DNA from: Halorientalis sp. LT38
GTDB taxonomy: Archaea; Halobacteriota; Halobacteria; Halobacteriales; Haloarculaceae
Assembly: GCF_037031225.1 (NCBI RefSeq)
Contig: NZ_JAYEZN010000001.1
Span: 434,001-498,000, forward strand
Length of the DNA stretch: 64,000 nt
Direction: 5' to 3'
Shown here piece by piece: positions 2,834 to 13,230 of the stretch. The position numbers and the translations under genes are program-made. The stretch's first letter is position 1, and each line of letters begins with the position of its first letter. The notes below the pieces were generated by a model. That model did no database searches, was not told the DNA's origin, and was given only the letters and a program-made list of their open reading frames with translations.

Positions 2834-3385
2834 TCACCACGCGTCGGCCGCGGTGGTGTCCTCCTCGTCGCGCTGGATGAGCGTCCCGCCGTACGGCCGG
2901 AAGTCGAGTTCGTAGACGCTCGCGACGTCCTCGAGGGCGTCCTCGCGGCGCGCGATGGTCTCGGTGTCGAACCCGAACTCCTCGACCGCCGCTTCGAGGG
3001 TCGCCTCGTCGATTACGTCGGAGGCGAACGCGTCGGCGATGCCGTCCCGGAGCACGTCCGCGTTGCGCCGGTACCGGAGTGCCTCCTCGAAGGCCTCGCG
3101 GGTCGACAGCGACGCCTCCTCGCCCCGGAGCGGGACGTCTTCGAGCGTGTCGACCGCGCGCCCGTCGTACTCCCCGGCCTTCTCGAGCACTTCGATCACC
3201 TGTTCCGTCGCCGAGAGCGCCTCCCAGGCGTCCCGGGCCGCGGGCGCGACCATCGCATCGACGACCTCCGTCCACGTCGTCGAGCGCTCGGCGTCCTCGA
3301 ACACCTCGGCGACGAACGCGCCGACGTGTTCGTCCGGGATCGACAGTGCGAGCGATTCGACGGTTCCGGTGTCAGTGTCAGTCAT
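2834..3385 (-). CDS. Conserved acidic protein at the end of the molybdoenzyme operon
   Basis: This 183-residue protein is soluble, acidic and predicted mostly helical; no signal peptide, membrane helix or metal-binding cysteine is visible (there are no Cys residues at all). It is the last gene of the operon, 15 bases after the HEAT-repeat protein. Regular helical segments such as TREAFEEALRYRRNADVLRDGIADAF and DEATLEAAVEEFGFDTETIARREDALEDV give a helical-bundle impression. I do not recognise the family. Position suggests an accessory role, for instance assembly of the enzyme or cofactor delivery, but this is inference from context only. Confidence 0.65.
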   Translation of the reverse strand: MTDTDTGTVESLALSIPDEHVGAFVAEVFEDAERSTTWTEVVDAMVAPAARDAWEALSATEQVIEVLEKAGEYDGRAVDTLEDVPLRGEEASLSTREAFEEALRYRRNADVLRDGIADAFASDVIDEATLEAAVEEFGFDTETIARREDALEDVASVYELDFRPYGGTLIQRDEEDTTAADAW

Positions 3386-3400
3386 AGGTAGTGGAATCGA

Positions 3401-4387
3401 TCAGTAGCCGGGACCGCCCGGTCCGTCGCCGGGGCGGGGCCTCTTCGAACCCCCGAACCCTTCGCGCGAGGGCGAGGGGCCGGGACCGCTCGGTTGATGA
3501 TTGCCCCGACCGCCGCCAGGCGCGTCCGGGTGGGACCCCGCGCCGCTGGGTGCGAGTTCCCCGCCAGGCACGTCGGGGCCGCAGTCCGAGACGTCGACCT
3601 CCTCCGGATCTTCGCCACGAGCGCGGGCCAGCGCGCGCTTCGCGGCCCGCTGGACGTCGTCGGAGCGATCGCCCAGCCCCTGTTCCTCGAGCGCCTCACG
3701 GGCCCGTCCGGTGCCGAGGTCGCCGAGGGAAACGGCGGCTTTCGCACGGACGAAGGCGTCCGGATCGCGGGCGAGCACGGCGGCCAGCAACCGCACAGCC
3801 TCGGCGACGTCGCCGGCTCCCTCCGCGTCGCCCCCTTCCAGGTCCTCGCCCGCCTCGTCGACGTAGTCCGGCAGGAACGTCGCCGCGTACTCCCGACTCG
3901 GTGAGTGGGGGTCGTTCTTCAGCCGGTCGACCAGCAGGTCCCAGGAGGCGGCCTCGCGCTTGCCCAGGGCGATCACCGCGTTGCGCCGAACCCAGCCGCT
4001 GTCGTCCTCGACGGCCGCGCGTAGCGGCCCGGCGACGTCCCCGTCGACACGCGAGAGCGCGACGACCGCTTCAGCGCGGACCCACTCGTCCGCGTCGTCC
4101 AGCGCGGTCACGACCGCCGACGCCGAGCCGCCGGCCGCACCCAGCGCCTCGACGGCGAACTGGCGCACGTCCGGATCGTCGTCACCGCGCGCGACTTCGA
4201 CCAACCGCTCTCGCGTCTCGGGGGCGAGTCCCGCTTCCGACGCGCGATCGACCAGCGCGAGGACCGCGTCCCGGCGGGTTCGCGGATCGTCGACCGAGAG
4301 CCGGTCGCGGATTCGCGTTTCGGTGAGTGGATCGGCGTCCTCCTCGGGCGCCCGACCGCGGGCGCTCTCCATCGCGAAGTCGGTCAT
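3401..4387 (-). CDS. HEAT-repeat protein of the molybdoenzyme operon
   Basis: The 328-residue protein contains several consecutive HEAT/PBS-lyase-type repeats (roughly residues 33-185 and 205-260), recognisable by units such as DDPDVRQFAVEALGAAG, ADEWVRAEAVVALSRV and DSGWVRRNAVIALGKRE. The last about 60 residues are Gly/Pro-rich and disordered (PGGGRGNHQPSGPGPSP). HEAT repeats form scaffolds for protein-protein contact and carry no enzymatic residues. Its ATG overlaps the stop of the heme-b subunit gene by 4 bases, so translation is probably coupled. A chaperone-like or docking role in assembling the respiratory complex is plausible. No export signal is seen, so it is probably cytoplasmic. 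Confidence 0.75.
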   Translation of the reverse strand: MTDFAMESARGRAPEEDADPLTETRIRDRLSVDDPRTRRDAVLALVDRASEAGLAPETRERLVEVARGDDDPDVRQFAVEALGAAGGSASAVVTALDDADEWVRAEAVVALSRVDGDVAGPLRAAVEDDSGWVRRNAVIALGKREAASWDLLVDRLKNDPHSPSREYAATFLPDYVDEAGEDLEGGDAEGAGDVAEAVRLLAAVLARDPDAFVRAKAAVSLGDLGTGRAREALEEQGLGDRSDDVQRAAKRALARARGEDPEEVDVSDCGPDVPGGELAPSGAGSHPDAPGGGRGNHQPSGPGPSPSREGFGGSKRPRPGDGPGGPGY

Positions 4388-5478
4388 CCGTCACCTCCGA
4401 GCTTCCGGTAGCTGTAGAGCCACGCGAGCACGGTGGCGACCACCAGCATCGCCAGGTAGCTCCCGGCGTGGCCGCCGAGCAGCCCCGCACCGCTGCCGCT
4501 GCTCGTCGTCTGGTTGGGGCCCGCGGTCTCCGTCGCGCCCCCGTCGCCGGGGCCCTGGTTCGCGGCGACGAGTTGCGACCCGTCCGCCGAGAGCTTCGTG
4601 AACTGCAGCGAGATGGACTTCTTCCCGTTGACCTCGTCGGCGCTGCCGTTCCAGACCCCCCACGCCAGATAGACCGGCGCCGAGCCGTTGAACGCGGCGT
4701 CGTACTGCCCGTCGGTGGTCCGCTCGCGGAGGAAGACCACCTGCCAGCCGTCGGCGGTCCGCTGGCCGTTCGCGTAGACGTTCTGGCGCTGGGCGTCGCT
4801 CAGCGAGCCGAACCCGCGGGCGTAGTAGTTCTGGCCGTACTCCTCGTAATCCTCACGGGAGAGGATGTTGCCGGCGGCGGTTCCCGGCCGGGTGCGGTTG
4901 TCGGGGTGCGGGTAGCTGTACATGTCCCCCGCCCCGTCGGCGGTGTGGTTGGAGTACTGCCAGCTGGCCCGCCAGTACCAGATGTTCACCGGTGTGCCGG
5001 TGCCGCCCATCGTCACCGGCGGTTGCTCGCCGGTCCGGAGCATGACCGCCGCGGCGTCGCTGTAGTTCTCCGGGCGGTCCAGTCCGAGGTCCCGGGTCGG
5101 GTCCTCCCAGGTCAGCCGGAAGCCGACGTGGGTGTCGTTGGTCGTCGCTTTCACCTCGACCTCGTCGACGCTCCCGCCGCCGAAGGGGACGGCCATGTTC
5201 TGTTCGCTCAGCGAGACCGTCCGACCCGGCGCGTCCTGCCAGGCGGCCGCGTCGACGCTCGTCGGGACGCTGTCGACCTGCGCGACGGGCTGGGCACCGC
5301 CCGTAAACGCCATCGCGATCCCGGCCTGTGCGGCGACGACGAGTCCGACCGCGAGCACGCCGACCGTCACCGCCACGCCCAGCGCGGCGACTGCAGGTGG
5401 GTAGTCGTCCAGTCGGTCGGCGACGCGAGCGGGCCCGGTCAGGATCGCCCGCAACCGGTCTCGACGCGAGCCGCTCAT
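4384..5478 (-). CDS. Heme-b binding gamma subunit, ethylbenzene-dehydrogenase type, membrane-anchored
   Basis: The 364-residue protein has an N-terminal membrane segment (about residues 28-55), a large extracytoplasmic domain and a C-terminal hydrophobic helix (about 335-356, HAGSYLAMLVVATVLAWLYSYRK) with positive residues after it, consistent with an anchor. The soluble domain matches the heme-binding gamma subunit of type II DMSO-reductase enzymes (EbdC/DdhC/SerC-like): DTHVGFRLTWEDPTRD near residue 115-130, then PPVTMGGTGTPVNIWYWRA, where Met157 is the candidate axial heme ligand. A Ser/Gly/Thr-rich linker precedes the anchor. It would pass electrons between the beta subunit and the membrane or an external carrier. 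Unlike the soluble bacterial gamma subunits it is tethered at one or both ends. It overlaps the neighbours by 4 bases on each side. Confidence 0.8.
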   Translation of the reverse strand: MSGSRRDRLRAILTGPARVADRLDDYPPAVAALGVAVTVGVLAVGLVVAAQAGIAMAFTGGAQPVAQVDSVPTSVDAAAWQDAPGRTVSLSEQNMAVPFGGGSVDEVEVKATTNDTHVGFRLTWEDPTRDLGLDRPENYSDAAAVMLRTGEQPPVTMGGTGTPVNIWYWRASWQYSNHTADGAGDMYSYPHPDNRTRPGTAAGNILSREDYEEYGQNYYARGFGSLSDAQRQNVYANGQRTADGWQVVFLRERTTDGQYDAAFNGSAPVYLAWGVWNGSADEVNGKKSISLQFTKLSADGSQLVAANQGPGDGGATETAGPNQTTSSGSGAGLLGGHAGSYLAMLVVATVLAWLYSYRKLGGDG

Positions 5479-6209
5479 CGCGCGCTCACCCCCGGTGGGG
5501 CGGTGAGTTCGCCGTCCACGGCCACGTCGCTCGGCGGATGCGCGGCGAGGTCCGCGGTGACGAGTTTCTCACCGAGATCGGCGGCCGCCAGGTAGACCTC
5601 GTCCTCGGTCGTCTCGCGGAGGTCGTGGGCCAGCGACGGCAGGAAGTCGCCGAGGTGGTGCTCCAGCAGGGTGGCCTCGATCCGTTCGAGGTCGCCCGCC
5701 CTGTCATCGGCGTCGGCCGCCAGCGACGCGGCGCGCTGGGCAGAGAGCAGTTGCATCAGCTCCAGTTCCAGCGCGAGGTGGTCGTGGCGCTCGGCGAAGT
5801 CGGGCGAGCGCTCCAGGTCGAACGCGTCGAGCAGGCCGGCGACCGTCGCGATCCGGCGCTGGGCCAGACTCACGTCGTCGCCGACCGTGTACTCGGCCTC
5901 GTAGGGGACGACGGCGTAGGAGCCGTCGCCGCCCGGGATGCCGAACAGGTCGTTGTAACTCGATTCGAGGTCGGCCACGTCCGTTCCTGCGAGCGCGTCG
6001 AGGAACTGGGACGCCTCGTCGCGACAGCCGAGCGTCTCGGCGGCTTCCAGCACGCCCTCGGCGGCGTCGGCGGCCGTCAGGTCCGCCACCGTCTCCTCGT
6101 CCGGATAGACGAAGACGGCCGCTAGCGCGCCGTAGAGTGCGCTCCGGGCCGCGTGGCGGTCCGGTTCGGGTCCGTCGTCGGGAAAGGTGTCGTCTGTCAT
6201 TCTGGTCAC
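5475..6209 (-). CDS. TorD/NarJ-type molybdoenzyme assembly chaperone
   Basis: The 244-residue all-helical, acidic protein has the TorD/DmsD/NarJ layout: an N-terminal helix RHAARSALYGALAAVFVYPDEETVADL, a central region with YNDLFGIPGGDGSYAVVPYEAEYT (about residues 105-130), the typical E-x-x-Y segment, and helices around HLALELELMQLLSAQ and HHLGDFLPSLAHDLRE. Such proteins bind the Tat signal of the catalytic subunit and hold it until the molybdopterin cofactor is inserted. It lies between the beta and gamma genes with overlapping or nearly overlapping ends, as in other type II DMSO-reductase operons. It is therefore probably dedicated to the alpha subunit at 7481-10645. Confidence 0.85.
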   Translation of the reverse strand: MTRMTDDTFPDDGPEPDRHAARSALYGALAAVFVYPDEETVADLTAADAAEGVLEAAETLGCRDEASQFLDALAGTDVADLESSYNDLFGIPGGDGSYAVVPYEAEYTVGDDVSLAQRRIATVAGLLDAFDLERSPDFAERHDHLALELELMQLLSAQRAASLAADADDRAGDLERIEATLLEHHLGDFLPSLAHDLRETTEDEVYLAAADLGEKLVTADLAAHPPSDVAVDGELTAPPGVSAR

Positions 6210-6210
6210 C

Positions 6211-7383
6211 CTATGGCTGGTTGGTCCACTGTTCGCCCTCGCGGATCTCGAGGGACTCCTCGATGGGGATGTCGACCACCTTCTCGCCGCTGGGGTCGTA
6301 CCCCTTCACGTGCGTTTCCTTGACGGTGTAGGTCTCGATGAGCCGGGTCGTCGCGCCGAACAACTGAAGGATGCCCAGCACCTCGTGGCTCGGGTTCCGG
6401 ACCCGCTGCTGAACGATCTCGATGCTCTCGCGGTAGGTGCTGCCCGGCCAGTCGTTGCGCTTCTCCTCGGTGTTGGGCGTGAACATCTGCGTCAGGAATT
6501 CCGGCGGGACGTGATAGGGCGGCATGTAGAACACCTGCGGCTGCGTCCCGAACTGGGGATAGAGCGGCAGCGCGATCTTCTCGTCGGACTTGACGAGGTA
6601 GTTGATCGGACTACGTCCGCCCGGCGCGTCCCCGCCCGGTGACGGGGCGTCCGGGCCGCGGTTGATGTTGCCGTGGAGCCGGGTCTTCCCGATACACGAG
6701 GAGACACAGCGGGGGACGTTGCCGTCCTCGATCCTCGGGTAACAGCCGATGGGTTTCTCCGTGACGCCCGTCTCCGCGTTGAACATGGGCTTGTGGTACG
6801 GACAGGCCTTGACGCAGCGGCGGTAGCCACGACAGCGCTCCTGGTCGATCAGGACGACGCCGTCGTCGCGCTTGTAGACCGCCTGGCGCGGACAGGCCGC
6901 GAGACAGGCCGGGTTCTTGCAGTGGTTGCAGAGGCGGGGCAGGTAGAACTGCCAGATGTCGTGGTACTCGCCTTGCTCGACGTCGCTCTCGACGACGTCG
7001 TTCTCCGGGTACTCGCCGTGGACGGAGTCGTCGCCCAGCGCCGGGTACTCCCAGTCTTCCTTCTGGGCGATGTAGCCCGCGACCTCCTCGTCGCGGTCGG
7101 CGGCCTCGAAGATGGTCTGGCCCGCCTCGAGGTCGTCCAGCAGGCGCATGTCCCAGCCCATCGGATAGCCGCCGTAGGGCTCCGTCTCGACGTTCATCCA
7201 CCACATGTACTCCTGACCCTTCCCCGAGGTCCAGGTGGACTTGCAGGCGAAGGAGCAGGTGTTGCAGTTGATACAGCGGTTCGTGTTGATGACCATGCCC
7301 CAGTGCCAGTCGCGGTCCTCCTCCCGGTGTTCGTAGGGATAGGAGTGCTCGCGGCCGAGCTGGGGGTTGTAGACGTCCGGCAT
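6211..7383 (-). CDS. Iron-sulfur beta subunit of a type II DMSO-reductase-family enzyme
   Basis: The 390-residue protein carries four Fe-S binding groups. C37, C40, C43 and C47 form the first CxxCxxCxxxC set; C152, C155, C160 and C164 the second; C184, C190 and C194 the third; and C214, C226 and C230 complete the pattern. In the third set the segment RCRGYRRCVKACPY has Tyr where the second Cys of a normal ferredoxin motif would be, as in NarH/DdhB/EbdB-type subunits where this site holds a [3Fe-4S] cluster. It moves electrons between the alpha subunit and the heme-b gamma subunit. Its ATG overlaps the stop of the 33-codon mini-ORF (TAATG). It has no Tat signal and would ride out with alpha. 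Confidence 0.88.
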   Translation of the reverse strand: MPDVYNPQLGREHSYPYEHREEDRDWHWGMVINTNRCINCNTCSFACKSTWTSGKGQEYMWWMNVETEPYGGYPMGWDMRLLDDLEAGQTIFEAADRDEEVAGYIAQKEDWEYPALGDDSVHGEYPENDVVESDVEQGEYHDIWQFYLPRLCNHCKNPACLAACPRQAVYKRDDGVVLIDQERCRGYRRCVKACPYHKPMFNAETGVTEKPIGCYPRIEDGNVPRCVSSCIGKTRLHGNINRGPDAPSPGGDAPGGRSPINYLVKSDEKIALPLYPQFGTQPQVFYMPPYHVPPEFLTQMFTPNTEEKRNDWPGSTYRESIEIVQQRVRNPSHEVLGILQLFGATTRLIETYTVKETHVKGYDPSGEKVVDIPIEESLEIREGEQWTNQP

Positions 7384-7484
7384 TAGCTATCGCCTCCCTG
7401 CAGTGAGCCACCGGTAGACTCGCTTCGCTCGACTACCGAGCCCGGCTTCGCGCTGCTCAGCCGGACACCGATGTAATCCGTCAT
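7383..7484 (-). CDS. 33-codon mini-ORF duplicating the C-terminus of the alpha subunit
   Basis: Between alpha and beta there is a small frame of 33 residues. Its ATG overlaps the alpha stop (ATGA) and its stop overlaps the beta start (TAATG), so it fills the gap exactly and could be translated by coupling. It starts MTDYIG and ends GGSLQGGDS, while alpha ends DYIGGSLQGGERR: the alpha tail is present twice, the second copy split by 18 residues (VRLSSAKPGSVVERSEST). Over the 11 shared codons the two copies differ at seven positions, all synonymous. The insert contains an imperfect inverted repeat (ggtag...ctacc, 7413-7437). It is either a small translated subunit or a relic of a duplicated gene end; no known family is recognised. 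Confidence 0.55.
   Translation of the reverse strand: MTDYIGVRLSSAKPGSVVERSESTGGSLQGGDS
7413..7437. repeat. Imperfect inverted repeat inside the mini-ORF
   Basis: A 25-bp segment has 5-bp perfect outer arms (ggtag and ctacc) around a core containing ctcg...ctcg, resembling the small GAGCGAAGCGAG-type palindromes often seen in haloarchaeal DNA. It lies within the stretch that separates the two halves of the duplicated alpha tail, which suggests insertion of a small palindromic unit. Confidence 0.45.
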
Positions 7485-10400
7485 CGGCGCTCACCCCCTT
7501 GGAGTGAGCCGCCGATGTAGTCCTGCATCAGATCGTCTTTGCGCGCGTCGCCCGGGCGCCAGTCGGCCTCCTCGTACTTCTCGACCTCGACGAGGTCGTC
7601 GCGGTTCGTGCCGGTCGGCGCCCAGACGGTCTCCTCGTAGCCGTGTTCCAGTTCGGCCCCCTTCCAGACGATGTCGTCCTCGACGTGCTCGGAGATGTTG
7701 GGGTCGCCGAACACCGCCTTGTGGACGAGGTCGTCGGTCTCCTGGGCCGGGTCGAGCCAGATGTTCGTGGTGACGTTGTACCCCTTCTCGCTGTCGGGGT
7801 TCGCCTCGTCGTCCGGGAAGTGCTGGGGCCACCAGCCGTGCCAGATGGTGAGTTGACCCATGTCGCCCGCCGACCGCGGGCGCATCCGTTCGCTCACCAT
7901 CGCGCGGACGACCAGGTCGCCCCGGAGCCCGCTGATGCGCACGTAGTCGCCGGTCTCCACGTCGATGTCCGCGGCGTCCTCGGGGTGGATCTCGACGAAC
8001 GCCTCGCCGAGCGGCGGCGTGTCGTTGGTCTCGCCCTCGCCCTCCGGAAACGAGAAGTCCTCGACCAGGCGTTCGGTCCCGCCCGGATCGGCGCTGGTCG
8101 ACCCGAAGTCCCTGGCCGACCAGATCAGGTTCCAGTCGGTCATCCCCCACGAGGAGTGGGTCCGGTACTTGGGATGGGGCGTGTTGTAGTAGAACTGGTA
8201 CTCCTGGTCGTGGTAGATCGGATTCTCCTGATCCTTGGCCGTCTCCCACTTCTCGTTTCGCCCGTAGGGCGTGCCTTCGGGGCTCTCGATGTGGTCCAGG
8301 TCGGCCCGACCGAGTTCGAGGAAGCGGTCCTCCTCCTTGTGGAACTCCATCCGGCCGGTCTTGGTGTAGAACGGCCGGTCCTCGTTGATCTGCGACCAGA
8401 AGGGAATCCGGGGATAGGTCTTCAGCTGGAGCCGTTCCGGGCCGTCCTCGATGTCCTCGACGTCGATGTCCCGGGTGGTCATGCCCGCGTCGAGGGTCTG
8501 CTGGATGTACTCGCGGACGTCCTCGTCGTCGTCGAGGAACTTGTCGAAGTACGACCGGTAGGAGTCGACGTTGCGCTCTTCTGGCGGGAGCTTCTCGTCG
8601 AGTTTCTCCGCGACCAGCGCGACGATCTCCCCGTCCTGCTTGGTGTCGTAGATGGGGTCCATGATCCCGTGGTCCATGTGCAGGAAGGGGTTCTCCGGCC
8701 CGACGGTGATGTCGGGGTACTCACACTCCAGCCAGGAGTGGACGGGGAGGACGATGTCGGCGTGGCGGGCCGAGTACGTCATGTGCATGTCCGAGACGAC
8801 GAACAGTTCGTTGCCCGTGTCCGGATGTTTGACGAAGTTCTCGACGACGTGTTGCTGGTGTTTGGTCTGGTTCAGCAGGTTGCAGTTCATCGTCCACAGG
8901 ACCGCCGGCCGGGACATGGTGTAGGAGTCGGCGTTCTCCGGCATCACCGGCTCGTCGGCGTCGCCCTGCGGAACGAGATCGAGGTCGCCGTCGAAGTCCC
9001 CGCGAATCTGGTGGGGATCCAGTTGCTCGCCGCCGAAGAAGGCGAAGGCGTACCCCGGATACATCCCGTGGGCCGCGTGCCCGTCCGGGTTGACGTAGGA
9101 CGGGTAGCCGTCCAGCAGTTCGATCTTGTACTGGCCGGAGTAGTTGTAGTAGCCGGCGCCGGGTTCGCCGATGTTGCCCAGCATCGACTGGACGAAGAAG
9201 ATCGTCCGCTGGAGCGAGTCGTTGCTGTGGAACCAGTGGTTGATCCCCTCGCCGGTGAACCACTGGGCTTTCTCCGCGGCCGCCAGGTCCCGGGCGGTCT
9301 GCCGGATGCCGTCGGCGGGAATCGTCGTGATCTCCTCGACCGTCTCGGGATCGTAGTTCGCCAGGATGTTCTCCTTCTGTCGGACGAAGTCGGTGTGGAC
9401 CGGGACCGCGCCGCCCTCGGCGAGGGTGATCTCGGTGTCGACCTCCAGCTGTGGCGTCGCCGGGGTCTCCTCGCCGACTTCCTCCCGCGTGATCGGGACG
9501 AGGTCGCCGTTCTGGGAGAGCGCGACGAAGTCACCCCAGTCGTTGGTCTCGTGTTGCTCGTCGAGGGTCTCGGCCGGCGGCGCGTGGTCTTCGAACACCT
9601 CGTGTGCGCGCAGGTACTTGCCGTCGTCCTGGCGGATCAGGAGCGGCAGCGTCGTGAACTGCCGCATGAACTCCTCGTCGTACAGCTTTTCGGTGATGAT
9701 GACGTTCGCGATGCCCAGCGCGAAGGCGGGGTCGCTCCCGGGCCGGATGGGGAGCCAGCGGTCGCACTTCTGGACCGTCGGCGAGTAGTCGGGGTAGACC
9801 CCCACCATCTCGCCGCCGCGCTCGCGGGTCTCCTGCAGCCAGTGGTTGTCCGCGAGTTTGTTGTGGATCAGGTTCTTCCCCTGCATGATCGTGAAGTCGG
9901 CCTTCCGCCAGGCCGACGCGTCGGCGTCGCTGGTCTGGTAGCCCGTCGTGATGACGTGGCCCGGCGGCAGGTCGGCGTACCAGTCGTACTCCGTCCACTC
10001 ACAGCCGCCGAAGATAGAGGCCAGCCGGCGCGCCGACCCGTGACGGGTGATCAGCCCGTCGGACTTGATCGCGTTGAAGACGTGGAAGCGCTTGTTGTCC
10101 TCCAGGTTCGCCATCTTCTCGGCGATCAGGTCGATCGCCTCGTCCCAGGAGACGCGCTCGAACTCGTCCTCGCCGCGACCCTCGGGATTCGGGTCCTCGG
10201 GGTCCCAGCCCTTCCGGACCATCGGGTACTTGATCCGGCTCGGCTCGAACGTCCGCCGGTGGAGGGTCAGCCCCTTCATGCAGCCGCGGGGGTTCCAGTG
10301 GCGGCTCACGTCCGCGTTCTCGTAGCCGCCCGGTCCACCAGGACCCGGGCTGCCCTCCTCCTCGTGGTAGATCTGTTCGGCCCGGATCGGCACCCCGTTT

Positions 10401-10645
10401 TTCATGTAGAAGTTCAGCGCACACGACTGCGTGCAGTTGGGGTGACAGACCGTCCAGTCCACGCTGTCGTACTGGTAGATGTCGTGGTACACCTGCTCCC
10501 AGTCACGGTTCGGGTAGGACCTGAGCGGGTTGTCCACGTCGGTCACCGGTTCGACGGTCTGGGTCGCCGACCAGGCGTCGCCCACGAGCGCCCCCACGGT
10601 GCCGGTCCCCGCCGCCGCGAGGAACTCACGCCGCGAGAGCGACAT
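7481..10645 (-). CDS. Molybdopterin catalytic alpha subunit, type II DMSO-reductase family
   Basis: The 1054-residue protein starts with a Tat signal (SRREFLAAAGTGTVGAL), so the active site faces outside the membrane. The FS0 [4Fe-4S] motif is C67-x3-C71-x3-C75 with C122 as fourth ligand, the (H/C)x3Cx3C spacing of type II enzymes. The stretch EYDWYADLPPGHVITTGYQTSDA (from residue 219) matches the NarG region that supplies an Asp ligand to molybdenum; D221 or D225 is the candidate here. The C-terminal MopB domain has VEIHPEDAADIDVETGDYVRI. The first gene of the operon, it is followed by beta, chaperone and heme-b gamma, the set found in nitrate, selenate and chlorate reductases and in dimethylsulfide and ethylbenzene dehydrogenases. 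The substrate cannot be decided from sequence. Confidence 0.88.
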   Translation of the reverse strand: MSLSRREFLAAAGTGTVGALVGDAWSATQTVEPVTDVDNPLRSYPNRDWEQVYHDIYQYDSVDWTVCHPNCTQSCALNFYMKNGVPIRAEQIYHEEEGSPGPGGPGGYENADVSRHWNPRGCMKGLTLHRRTFEPSRIKYPMVRKGWDPEDPNPEGRGEDEFERVSWDEAIDLIAEKMANLEDNKRFHVFNAIKSDGLITRHGSARRLASIFGGCEWTEYDWYADLPPGHVITTGYQTSDADASAWRKADFTIMQGKNLIHNKLADNHWLQETRERGGEMVGVYPDYSPTVQKCDRWLPIRPGSDPAFALGIANVIITEKLYDEEFMRQFTTLPLLIRQDDGKYLRAHEVFEDHAPPAETLDEQHETNDWGDFVALSQNGDLVPITREEVGEETPATPQLEVDTEITLAEGGAVPVHTDFVRQKENILANYDPETVEEITTIPADGIRQTARDLAAAEKAQWFTGEGINHWFHSNDSLQRTIFFVQSMLGNIGEPGAGYYNYSGQYKIELLDGYPSYVNPDGHAAHGMYPGYAFAFFGGEQLDPHQIRGDFDGDLDLVPQGDADEPVMPENADSYTMSRPAVLWTMNCNLLNQTKHQQHVVENFVKHPDTGNELFVVSDMHMTYSARHADIVLPVHSWLECEYPDITVGPENPFLHMDHGIMDPIYDTKQDGEIVALVAEKLDEKLPPEERNVDSYRSYFDKFLDDDEDVREYIQQTLDAGMTTRDIDVEDIEDGPERLQLKTYPRIPFWSQINEDRPFYTKTGRMEFHKEEDRFLELGRADLDHIESPEGTPYGRNEKWETAKDQENPIYHDQEYQFYYNTPHPKYRTHSSWGMTDWNLIWSARDFGSTSADPGGTERLVEDFSFPEGEGETNDTPPLGEAFVEIHPEDAADIDVETGDYVRISGLRGDLVVRAMVSERMRPRSAGDMGQLTIWHGWWPQHFPDDEANPDSEKGYNVTTNIWLDPAQETDDLVHKAVFGDPNISEHVEDDIVWKGAELEHGYEETVWAPTGTNRDDLVEVEKYEEADWRPGDARKDDLMQDYIGGSLQGGERR

Positions 10646-10754
10646 TGCTCACCTCCGCTTCCCCGACCGTCCGTTCACGATTCGCTACTGGCATACATCG
10701 GAGGATACGCGCGTCTCCACTTGACGTGGCGAGACTGTTCTCAGACGACTGGAA

Positions 10755-10772
10755 CGAACGGGAAAACGTTCG
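10755..10772. promoter_or_regulatory. Inverted repeat near the alpha promoter, possible regulator site
   Basis: Arms CGAACG and CGTTCG are separated by six bases. The right part also reads GGAA-AACG-TTCG (10761-10772), one mismatch from the CGAA-N4-TTCG pattern reported for NarO-controlled promoters in Haloferax volcanii. It lies 110-127 bases before the alpha ATG, close to a possible TATA element. Assignment as the binding site of the divergent NarO/DmsR-like regulator is inference. Confidence 0.4.
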
Positions 10773-10927: not shown

Positions 10928-11227
10928 TCCGTGGGGTCCCCGCGTCGGGGATCGGCCCGGCGCGGGGTGAGAGACACCAGCACGTTCCGGCCACGGTGAC
11001 GGACGGTCGGTGCCCCCGTCCGGTGTGGCCGACGCCGCGTCGTACGTGGTCCGTTCGCGCGGCCCGAACCGACCGAACTGCCCGGCAACCGAAACCGCGT
11101 CTGTCTCGGTTGCGTTTCGACGAAGGGTCCGTCCGAGGAAGAGTGTGTGACCAAAACTCCGTGGGGTTTTTTGCGAGTCGCCGCCGGTCGATCGCTCGCC
11201 GTGACGACCCGCGCCGTCGGGCCGACC

Positions 11228-11246
11228 CGAACGTGTCCGGGGACAC
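11228..11246. promoter_or_regulatory. Inverted repeat upstream of the NarO/DmsR-like gene
   Basis: Two overlapping patterns are seen: CGAA-CGTG-TCCG (11228-11239), one mismatch from CGAA-N4-TTCG, and a perfect inverted repeat GTGTCC-gg-GGACAC (11233-11246). Both lie 30-50 bases before the regulator ATG, near the position expected for its TATA element, which is weak (gatact). Autoregulation would fit but is not shown. Confidence 0.35.
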
Positions 11247-11276
11247 CACGATACTGTGGGCGACCCTAGTACCCCC

Positions 11277-11912
11277 ATGAGCGACCCCGGGCTCCAGATC
11301 TCGATGGCGATCGACGCCCCGGCGGGCTGTCCGGCTGGAGAGGCATCGACGGCGACCGGCACCGCCGTCGAGTCGGTGACCTGGAACGCCGCGACCGACG
11401 GCCCCGTGACCGAGGAGTTCACCGCCGACGCCGATCTCGATCGGGACGGCGTCGAGCCCGTCTTCGAGACCGATGGCCGGACCCGCTACCGGTTCGAACG
11501 CGACTGGGACGAGGCCTGCGCCTGCGAGATGGTCGAACTCGAGGGCTGCCCCCTCGAAGAGGTCCGCGCCGAGGACGGCCGGCTCCACCTGCGTTTCTAC
11601 GCGCCCGACGTCGACCGGGTCCGCGAGATCGTGGCCGACCTCCGCGAGCGGTACGGCGGCGTCCGGCTGAAACACCTCAGCCAGTCCGGCGAGGTCGAAG
11701 AGCAGAATCTCGTCCTCGTCGACCGGAACCGGCTGACCGACCGCCAGCGGGAGGTACTGGAGACGGCCTACGAGATGGGCTATTTCGAACACCCGCGCGA
11801 GTCGAACGCCAGCGACGTGGCCGATACCCTCGACGTCTCGCTGTCGACGTTCACCGAACACCTCGCCATCGCCCAGTCGAAAGTGCTGGACGCGGTCGTC
11901 GAAACCGACTGA
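11277..11912 (+). CDS. NarO/DmsR-type HTH-10 regulator with cysteine sensor motif
   Basis: From the ATG at 11277 the protein has 211 residues. The C-terminus is an HTH-10 (bacterio-opsin activator) domain from about residue 153: LTDRQREVLETAYEMGYFEHPRESNASDVADTLDVS and following. The N-terminal part has only four cysteines, C18, C81, C83 and C91, giving CX62CXCX7C. This is the CXnCXCX7C pattern described for NarO of Haloferax volcanii and its paralog DmsR, which switch on nitrate or DMSO respiration genes when oxygen is low; the cysteines probably hold an oxygen-sensitive metal cluster. It is transcribed divergently from the molybdoenzyme operon, the expected place for its activator. An earlier in-frame start at 11256 would add seven residues. 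Confidence 0.85.
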   Translation: MSDPGLQISMAIDAPAGCPAGEASTATGTAVESVTWNAATDGPVTEEFTADADLDRDGVEPVFETDGRTRYRFERDWDEACACEMVELEGCPLEEVRAEDGRLHLRFYAPDVDRVREIVADLRERYGGVRLKHLSQSGEVEEQNLVLVDRNRLTDRQREVLETAYEMGYFEHPRESNASDVADTLDVSLSTFTEHLAIAQSKVLDAVVETD

Positions 11913-11931: not shown

Positions 11932-13230
11932 TCAGGGTCGCACCGTCCGCAGCGCCCACGTCTCGGGCCCCTGTTTCTCGACCTCGAACGGCTGGAAGGC
12001 GAGTTCGGGATCTTCGACCGCCGCCAGTTCGCCGAGGAACTCCCGGACCGGCGTGGGATCGCGGTCGCTCAGGAGGTAGAACGGCTCACCTGGATCGACC
12101 GACGCGAACCCTTCCTCGACGGCGTCGTAGCGTTCCTCGGGCGCGAGGCCGCGGAGGTCGACCGCGTCGTCGGGCACCGTCATCCGTCCGACGTCGTCCA
12201 GACGATCCCGAACGCTGTCGGCCAGGGCAGCGAACGGGGCCGGCGCATCTCCGGGCGTCGCGGTCGTCTGCGCGTCGTCGGTAAAGGGGAGTTCGGCCAG
12301 GACCGGCGCGTCGAGGTCCGCGACGGTCGCCCCGTCGAACAGCGGGTGTTCGTCGCCGCACTCCGGACAGGTGTGGCTGGCCATGTTCAGGACCGTCCCG
12401 AGGACGGGGACGCCCTCGTCGGCGAACAGTTCGACGCTCCGGCGGGTGTCGGCCACGCTCGCCTGGAAGGGGGTCGTCACGAACAGGACGCCGTCGACGG
12501 GCGTCTCCTGGAGCACCGAGAGCACCACGTCGCCCGTCCCCGGCGGCAGATCGAGGACCAGCACGTCCCGGTCGCTCCAGGCCGTGTTCTCGGCCAGGTC
12601 GGTCAGGGCGTCGTGGGCCACCGACCCGCGCCAGGCCAGCGGCTGGCTGTCGTTCATCAGGCCGGTGCTCATCACCTCCAGTCCGTCCCGCTCTACGGGC
12701 ATCGGGCGGTCGTCCTCGTCGGCCCTGACTGGACCGTCCACGTCCAGCAGGGTCGGGACGTTCGGCCCGTAGAGGTCGGCGTCGAAGAGCCCCACGTCCC
12801 GATCGGCCGCCAGTGCGCAGGCCAACTGGACCGCAACTGTCGACTTCCCGACGCCACCTTTCGCGCTGGCCACCGCAATCACGAGGTCCACGTCGGCGAA
12901 GGCCTCGGTATCACCGTCCGCACCGGCTTCGCCGTGTTCTAATCCGCCCTCGTGGCCGTGGTGGTGGGTGTGGGGCTCCGGCGTCACTCGCTCGACTCGG
13001 ACCTCGTCGACGCCGTCGATGCCGCCGACGGCGCTGACGACGGCGTCGGCGACCCCCTGTCCCATCGAGGGGTCGACCGCCGTCGTATCCAGTTCGACCG
13101 TCACCCCGCCCGACTCGACGGTGACGTCGTGGACCAGTCCGACCTCGTACACGTCGGCCCCGAGCGACGGATTCCGGACCTGCTGTAACGCCGACTCGAC
13201 GGCCGATTCCAGTTCGTTCGTCGTGGACAT
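11932..13230 (-). CDS. Mrp/NBP35-family Fe-S carrier ATPase fused to a DUF2249 domain
   Basis: Domains in order: a MIP18/DUF59-like domain (about residues 5-82), a His-rich linker (HTHHHGHEGG, 87-96), the Mrp ParA-like ATPase with deviant P-loop KGGVGKST (124-131), DLPPGTGD (227-234) and the CxxC motif C288-C291, then a C-terminal DUF2249 domain (AVDLRGLAPEERYDAVEEGF, from about 356). Mrp proteins bind [4Fe-4S] clusters and pass them to apoproteins. DUF2249 proteins have been noted near nitrogen-oxide metabolism genes. It converges on the NarO/DmsR-like gene with 19 bases between them. A role in loading the many clusters of the neighbouring molybdoenzyme is plausible but inferred. Confidence 0.85.
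   Translation of the reverse strand: MSTTNELESAVESALQQVRNPSLGADVYEVGLVHDVTVESGGVTVELDTTAVDPSMGQGVADAVVSAVGGIDGVDEVRVERVTPEPHTHHHGHEGGLEHGEAGADGDTEAFADVDLVIAVASAKGGVGKSTVAVQLACALAADRDVGLFDADLYGPNVPTLLDVDGPVRADEDDRPMPVERDGLEVMSTGLMNDSQPLAWRGSVAHDALTDLAENTAWSDRDVLVLDLPPGTGDVVLSVLQETPVDGVLFVTTPFQASVADTRRSVELFADEGVPVLGTVLNMASHTCPECGDEHPLFDGATVADLDAPVLAELPFTDDAQTTATPGDAPAPFAALADSVRDRLDDVGRMTVPDDAVDLRGLAPEERYDAVEEGFASVDPGEPFYLLSDRDPTPVREFLGELAAVEDPELAFQPFEVEKQGPETWALRTVRP

Follow-up and report, generated by a model that had tools for sequence, protein, structure and literature searches.

The regulator gene and the operon it faces

The window, by which we mean the whole 64,000-nucleotide stretch of Halorientalis sp. 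LT38 analysed here, contains a regulator gene on the plus strand (11277-11912; REG hereafter) whose 211-residue product combines a DmsR_N domain (Pfam, 142.4 bits against a cut-off of 27, match from residue 5) with a C-terminal HTH_10 domain (72.1 bits, residues 153-204). Translation of this interval gives Cys18, Cys81, Cys83 and Cys91 as the sole cysteines, in the arrangement CX62CXCX7C. A preliminary description of this DNA had proposed both the regulator type and a four-cysteine pattern without further cysteines; the translation and the two Pfam domain matches bear this out. The ATG at 11277 is preferred as the start over a longer GTG frame from 11256, because counting from it places the start of the DmsR_N match at residue 5 and because ATACTG, a possible TATA box (11251-11256, plus strand), lies 26 nt before this ATG in sequence that is kept in two relatives of the same genus. 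From this spacing we infer a leaderless start. A comparison of REG with solved structures gave no sequence match, and the sole fold match below E 0.001 for its model (3 sequences, pLDDT 73.5), Thermoplasma Ta1207, was set aside as a fold relative, its TM of 0.45 being too weak to use.

Across 631 bp, REG diverges from a minus-strand operon that starts at 10645. Its genes are alpha, a molybdopterin subunit of 1054 residues (7481-10645); beta, an Fe-S subunit (6211-7383); a TorD/NarJ-like chaperone (5475-6209); gamma, an EB_dh-type haem b subunit with hydrophobic stretches at both ends as read from its sequence (4384-5478); a HEAT-repeat protein of an accessory type also present in nar operons (3401-4387); and orf183, an accessory protein without a Pfam match (2834-3385). 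These six genes are tightly packed, some of them overlapping. The N-terminus of alpha is Tat-like, with a TIGR01409 score of 14.7 bits, just under the cut-off of 16.7. On the other side, convergent with REG, lies an accessory gene for an Mrp/ApbC-type P-loop NTPase with DUF2249 (11932-13230, minus strand). The accessory set formed by the EB_dh-like gamma, TorD chaperone, HEAT protein and P-loop NTPase is that of annotated haloarchaeal nar operons (Haloferax larsenii, Halarchaeum); unlike in these, no Rieske or cytochrome b gene was found among the window operon genes examined. The genome (3.58 Mb) carries four DmsR_N genes in all and a separate canonical nar/nirK region.

In the genome G167 of the same genus (locus L143), REG, orf183 and the Mrp gene are kept and the genes from alpha to HEAT are missing; orf183 is also retained in other alpha operons. 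A further observation concerns a short leader frame upstream of alpha. In 30 of the 32 loci with distinct upstream sequence (41 alpha loci in all), this frame opens with a conserved ATG 32-53 nt ahead of alpha and keeps a constant phase relative to it, with lengths that vary by whole codons; in 27 loci its closing TGA overlaps the alpha start. The frame is absent before alpha in the window and in G058, another genome of the genus.

Affinity and distribution of the molybdoenzyme

Compared with proteins of solved structure, alpha matched NxrA of Kuenenia first (426.9 bits), followed by PcrA (244), NarG (at most 173) and EbdA (152); beta matched NxrB (292.1 bits; PcrB 190) and gamma matched NxrC (91.7 bits; EbdC 49). 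The nitrite oxidoreductase (NXR) of Kuenenia stuttgartiensis (7b04) is thus the nearest solved relative of all three subunits. The canonical NarG of the same genome, used as a control, reversed the order, with perchlorate reductase PcrA first (759 bits) and NxrA at 162.6 bits. Alpha is 33% identical to this NarG. With the NCBIfam type II alpha model, alpha stays below the cut-off of 984.75 at 436.4 bits and the genome's own NarG exceeds it at 1326.7; alpha is likewise below the EbdA equivalog cut-off (170.8 versus 2000), and the narG equivalog model was uninformative, as NarG itself falls short of it (571 versus 1084). Judged by the scores of the structure-database matches, alpha, beta and gamma are a type II molybdoenzyme of the NXR lineage. 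The earlier assignment to an Ebd/Ddh/Ser-like type rather than a nar type therefore has to be given up, since all three subunits are nearest to NXR and the accessory set is the one found in nar operons. An Ebd-like or hydrocarbon dehydrogenase, prompted by adjacent acyl-CoA synthetase and Liv transporter genes, was considered and rejected as first choice in view of the much higher NXR scores; as clues, these neighbours lose weight in that they have close relatives in same-genus loci only and are present in the enzyme-less G167.

Residues described for NXR and NAR in parts of PMC8387239 and PMC12300631 were mapped through the alignment of alpha with NxrA. On this mapping, the Mo-ligand Asp225 and the substrate residue Asn70 are as in NXR, Kuenenia included, and also as in NAR; Cys67 is as in NXR; and Asn262 and Glu466, the equivalents of Kuenenia Asn312 and Glu527, match NXR rather than NAR. 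In contrast to Kuenenia NXR, alpha has Cys71 in place of the FS0 ligand Asp71, so that the 3Cys/1Asp ligation is not found, and the NAR-like His824 in place of Lys917, and gamma has hydrophobic ends. The motif CHPNCTQSC in alpha suggests an FS0 cluster with four cysteine ligands. Gamma, when aligned with NxrC, has counterparts of its two haem ligands, Met155 and Lys305. Homology of a haloarchaeal enzyme to NXR has already been noticed, given that Halobacteriota proteins are placed within the wider NXR-A clade in the relevant part of PMC12758564. Our literature search, which covered part of the matching papers, found no treatment of the NXR-like operon or its regulation. Phage records gave partial matches to alpha only.

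Relatives of alpha at 76-94% identity were found in 18 of 194 genomes of the class, including the window's own, the next matches being at most 38% identical; Natrinema, Natrialba, Haloarcula, Halomicroarcula, Halosimplex, Halorussus, Halobaculum and Halostella are among the carrier genera. A NirK match (E <1e-30) is present in all 18 carriers, albeit fragmentary in some (e.g., G163), and in 101 of the 188 genomes of the class sample. Canonical NarG (79-100% identity) occurs in nine carriers; in the other nine, comprising seven Natrinema (G004, G025, G034, G090, G142, G143 and G163) and two Halobaculum genomes (G087 and G145), a NarG query (E <1e-40) hits the NXR-like alpha only. Among the latter is Natrinema altunense AJ2 (G004), for which the portion of PMC5333441 consulted describes anaerobic growth on nitrate, reduction of nitrate and nitrite, and formation of N2, although a NarG may have been missed there because the assembly comprises 3.77 of about 4.4 Mb. 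Considering that NirK accompanies the enzyme in all 18 carriers and that nine of them, the nitrate-respiring N. altunense included, show no canonical NarG match, nitrate reduction appears to be its likeliest role. As to Natrinema gene structure, alpha is split over two frames, through either a broken gene or a sequencing error, at G034:C88:153712-156965 and G090:C1:2392308-2395462, and G025 and G090 carry an additional longer, more distant alpha-like frame.

The DmsR_N family and the promoter elements

Of the 188 genomes in the class sample, 165 have a DmsR_N match, which makes this a large family. A total of 157 candidates (score >45, frames <460 aa) was reduced to 129 with a score of at least 70 and, after removal of duplicates, to 126; the homolog loci were hand-picked from the best-scoring matches listed, and the following counts apply to that sample. 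Cysteine occupies the four REG positions in 123, 125, 120 and 73 of the 126 homologs, respectively. The first three are near-universal, the complete CXnCXCX7C set is found in 68, and the fourth cysteine is replaced chiefly by Thr (23) or Ser (10). Because cysteine recurs at these positions across the sample, the pattern in REG is more than a chance arrangement. The preliminary description had taken it as the mark of a NarO/DmsR clade; the motif is family-wide, however, and in both closest orthologs of REG (G058 and G167) the fourth cysteine is Ser.

A maximum likelihood tree with ultrafast supports was built from 123 sequences, three of the 126 being left out; the Halosimplex aquaticum regulator lies outside the tree, missed through the frame-length filter. 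REG groups with its G058 and G167 orthologs (support 99) and then with two more proteins of the same genus (99). One of the latter two faces a gene for a CtaD-like terminal oxidase (L149, labelled 'cbb3_b', 664.3 bits against a cut-off of 670.75). Their sister group (support 86), itself a clade supported at 97, consists of L150, which adjoins cysK, and of regulators from Halosimplex salinum and H. pelagicum. These Halosimplex regulators have a nar operon on one side and the alpha operon on the other; H. pelagicum has two regulators, and only the one farther from alpha belongs to the sister clade. Regulators linked to nar, such as the window genome's own, that of Haloferax larsenii and those of L226, L227 and L230, are scattered over several clades on a weakly supported backbone, and dms-linked ones (Halomicrobium mukohataei and Halorubrum sp. 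CBA1229) lie far from REG, yet keep CXCX7C. The tree thus gives no support to the supposed clade, nor to a placement of REG in a tight NarO clade. Other family members adjoin nosZ, nirK and, often, a pyridoxamine-phosphate-oxidase-like gene. The last of these stands, along with a small HTH gene, beside a large clade (part of L160-L202) that has few reference respiratory genes within 9 kb.

Promoter comparisons were made with the denitrification promoters of H. mediterranei, for which the part of PMC10062603 consulted describes the semipalindrome CGAAYATDKTYG; its mutation matters for nor and nos and does not lower nar promoter activity. Upstream of alpha, on the minus strand, CGAACGTTTTCC (10761-10772) is a semipalindrome of this type with one mismatch to CGAA-N4-TTCG, and together with its flank it forms the inverted repeat CGAACG-N6-CGTTCG (10755-10772). 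Among the 32 distinct alpha promoters, the site is exact in 12 and present with one mismatch at the same place, 107-129 nt before the alpha start, in nine, the window among them; it is absent in 11, all from Natrinema or Natrialba. Among shuffled alpha upstreams, which keep base composition only, 0.2% contain an exact site and 5.4% a site with at most one mismatch; the compared loci are related, and their counts are not independent. A second inverted element, GTTCCAGTCGTCTGAGAAC (10737-10755, minus strand), is shared, at a constant position and with up to two mismatches, by 21 of the 32 alpha promoters and, within the same tolerance, by none of the 14 nar promoters tested. With gene starts taken from the longest frames, four of these nar promoters carry an exact CGAA-N4-TTCG (L226, L227, L230 and L251), and that of the window genome itself shows no site within two mismatches.

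A plus-strand semipalindrome, CGAACGTGTCCG (11228-11239), is situated just upstream of the ATACTG box and the ATG of REG; it is identical in G058 and reads CGAACATATCCG in G167. Exact sites also precede relatives of REG in G196, in H. salinum and at the farther gene of H. pelagicum (Halosimplex loci L058 and L074), and no site within one mismatch precedes the homologs from the genus in G109 and G194. For the 126 DmsR_N genes, the upstream 150 nt contain an exact site in 11, compared with 0/126 in the inside-gene control and 0.1% of composition-preserving shuffles; with one mismatch or better the figures are 31, 12 and 3.9%, respectively. Across the entire window, CGAA-N4-TTCG occurs 46 times where 43 are expected, so there is no overall enrichment. 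The window genome has 19 matches to CGAAYRTNTTCG; three fall within the nar/nirK region at 3.100-3.116 Mb and another two at 3.143-3.145 Mb. Between REG and alpha, an inverted repeat (GCAACCGAA...TCGGTTGC, 11085-11113) and a T-rich block (CCAAAACTCCGTGGGGTTTTTTG, 11151-11173) are kept in three intergenic regions of the genus; an Rfam search and bacterial-type promoter and terminator scans of the REG-alpha region found nothing.

In five of the 31 distinct loci with enough upstream sequence, namely the window (G000), G058 and three Halosimplex species, a DmsR_N gene diverges from alpha at a distance of no more than 1.1 kb; L062, with 544 bp upstream only, was left out of this count. The divergence from a molybdoenzyme operon described earlier is therefore confirmed and recurs in two genera. 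At the remaining 26 loci there is no DmsR_N gene within 1.1 kb, and the Halobaculum genomes G087 and G145 possess the operon and the promoter element and have no DmsR_N match at E 0.001. Consequently, the element may be readable by another factor in Halobaculum, and the idea of CGAA-N4-TTCG as a REG-specific site is not supported. Given the pairing at five of 31 loci, the Halobaculum case and the enzyme-less G167, REG is most likely a local switch of the alpha operon in the window genus, and other lineages most likely drive the same type of promoter through a remote or different factor. The earlier idea of REG as the operon's switch is still plausible, but the 26 loci without such a gene nearby weigh against it. 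In six Natrinema loci (L055, L056, L067, L071, L072 and L075), an HTH_10-type protein lacking CXCX7C was noted downstream of the alpha operon, near position 21.6-22.4 kb of the locus.

A redox-switch reading and its alternatives

We consider it somewhat more probable than the reverse (a little under 60%) that REG is a redox switch of the NarO type, which controls an NXR-type nitrate reductase operon together with its own gene. Its N-terminal cysteines, mainly Cys18, Cys81 and Cys83 and here also Cys91, would hold a redox- or oxygen-labile centre, probably an Fe-S cluster. In the low-oxygen state of this centre, REG is expected to act at sites of the CGAA-N4-TTCG type, the candidates being 10761-10772 upstream of the alpha promoter and 11228-11239 upstream of its own, and it would presumably switch on, rather than repress, both the divergent operon from alpha to orf183 and itself. 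The product would be a probably exported molybdoenzyme that in vivo most likely serves as a respiratory nitrate reductase, feeding NirK-dependent denitrification. NarO of Haloferax volcanii reportedly has the pattern CXnCXCX7C (Hattori 2016). It is also reported to need all four cysteines, and the Ser at the fourth position of the two closest REG orthologs counts against this reading. With NarO, REG shares the domain type, the cysteine pattern, divergence from a type II molybdoenzyme operon and denitrification-type sites; it differs in that its target enzyme is NXR-like instead of canonical NarGH, and the protein in the NarO position of Haloferax larsenii is 44% identical to REG and belongs to a different clade. 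DmsR, which reportedly responds to DMSO, has the CXCX7C stretch in common with REG, and that of Halomicrobium mukohataei also has DmsR_N plus HTH_10, but the dms-linked proteins are distant by profile (36.9 against 142.4 bits for Pfam DmsR_N). Moreover, they are co-directional with dms genes, whereas REG diverges from a non-dms operon and thus lacks the co-direction with dmsEABCD that marks a DmsR in the strict sense. The label 'oxygen-responsive' that the preliminary description gave to both regulators accordingly fits NarO, DmsR being reported as DMSO-responsive.

Another possibility is that a more general anaerobic regulator reads CGAA-N4-TTCG and that REG mainly controls itself or the maturation genes orf183 and Mrp, a reading that is unlikely on balance but has a real chance of being right. 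The Halobaculum promoters, the 26 of 31 loci without an adjacent DmsR_N gene and the retention of REG, Mrp and orf183 without the enzyme in G167 would all follow from it, as would the presence of the motif in H. mediterranei, where, in the part of PMC10062603 consulted, the authors found no NarO homolog (two DmsR/NarO-like candidates are named for this species in PMC11218638). What such a regulator does not account for is the divergent pairing in two genera, with regulators that include sister clades, and the frequency of the site upstream of DmsR_N genes, far above controls. It is also conceivable, though rather doubtful, that REG senses a substrate (nitrate, nitrite, NO or another oxyanion) in place of oxygen, as DmsR would with DMSO. 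This would agree with the reported DMSO response and with the variable fourth cysteine, which suggests diversified sensing, and the same portion of PMC10062603 states that electron acceptors are required for full promoter activity; on the other hand, the dms-linked regulators are only distantly related to REG, and the cysteine core reported for NarO is retained.

A different question is the direction in which the enzyme runs. Since alpha, beta and gamma are all nearest to NXR, Asn262 and Glu466 resemble NXR and not NAR, and Kuenenia NXR is bidirectional according to part of PMC8387239, the operon might be an archaeal nitrite-oxidation system. We regard this as very improbable, as 21 of 32 alpha promoters have a site of the denitrification type and 18 of 18 carriers have NirK, both of which point to reduction, nitrate-respiring N. 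altunense (per the portion of PMC5333441 consulted) has no canonical NarG match, and FS0 appears to be of the four-Cys type, with a NAR-like His824. The evidence as a whole suggests that some haloarchaea respire nitrate via an unexpected NXR-like enzyme under a NarO-type switch.

More broadly, haloarchaea may have taken on an NXR-lineage enzyme, perhaps bidirectional, as a respiratory nitrate reductase and brought it under a cysteine redox switch; it would replace NarG in Natrinema and Halobaculum and be an additional nitrate reductase in the window genome. We put this forward tentatively, as a possibility well short of an even chance. The finding gains interest because the enzyme reads as NXR-type under denitrification-type control, which would tie the one characterised haloarchaeal family of anaerobic switches to a second, little-noticed type of nitrate/nitrite enzyme. 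It predicts that the NXR-type enzyme allows nitrate respiration in Natrinema and Halobaculum species without NarG, and the closest REG orthologs, which lack the fourth cysteine, are a ready-made case on which the four-Cys claim can be tested. Were the enzyme truly bidirectional, the same operon could oxidise nitrite in micro-oxic brine; we know of no archaeon that oxidises nitrite, and none was found in our search of part of the matching papers. A second haloarchaeal NXR-like alpha was also noted, at L179 (11065-14655, plus strand; 1196 aa) and at L217/L248; that of L179 matches NxrA over nearly its full length with 716 bits, and this second type, too, diverges from the gene of a DmsR_N regulator, from which a P-loop NTPase gene separates it.
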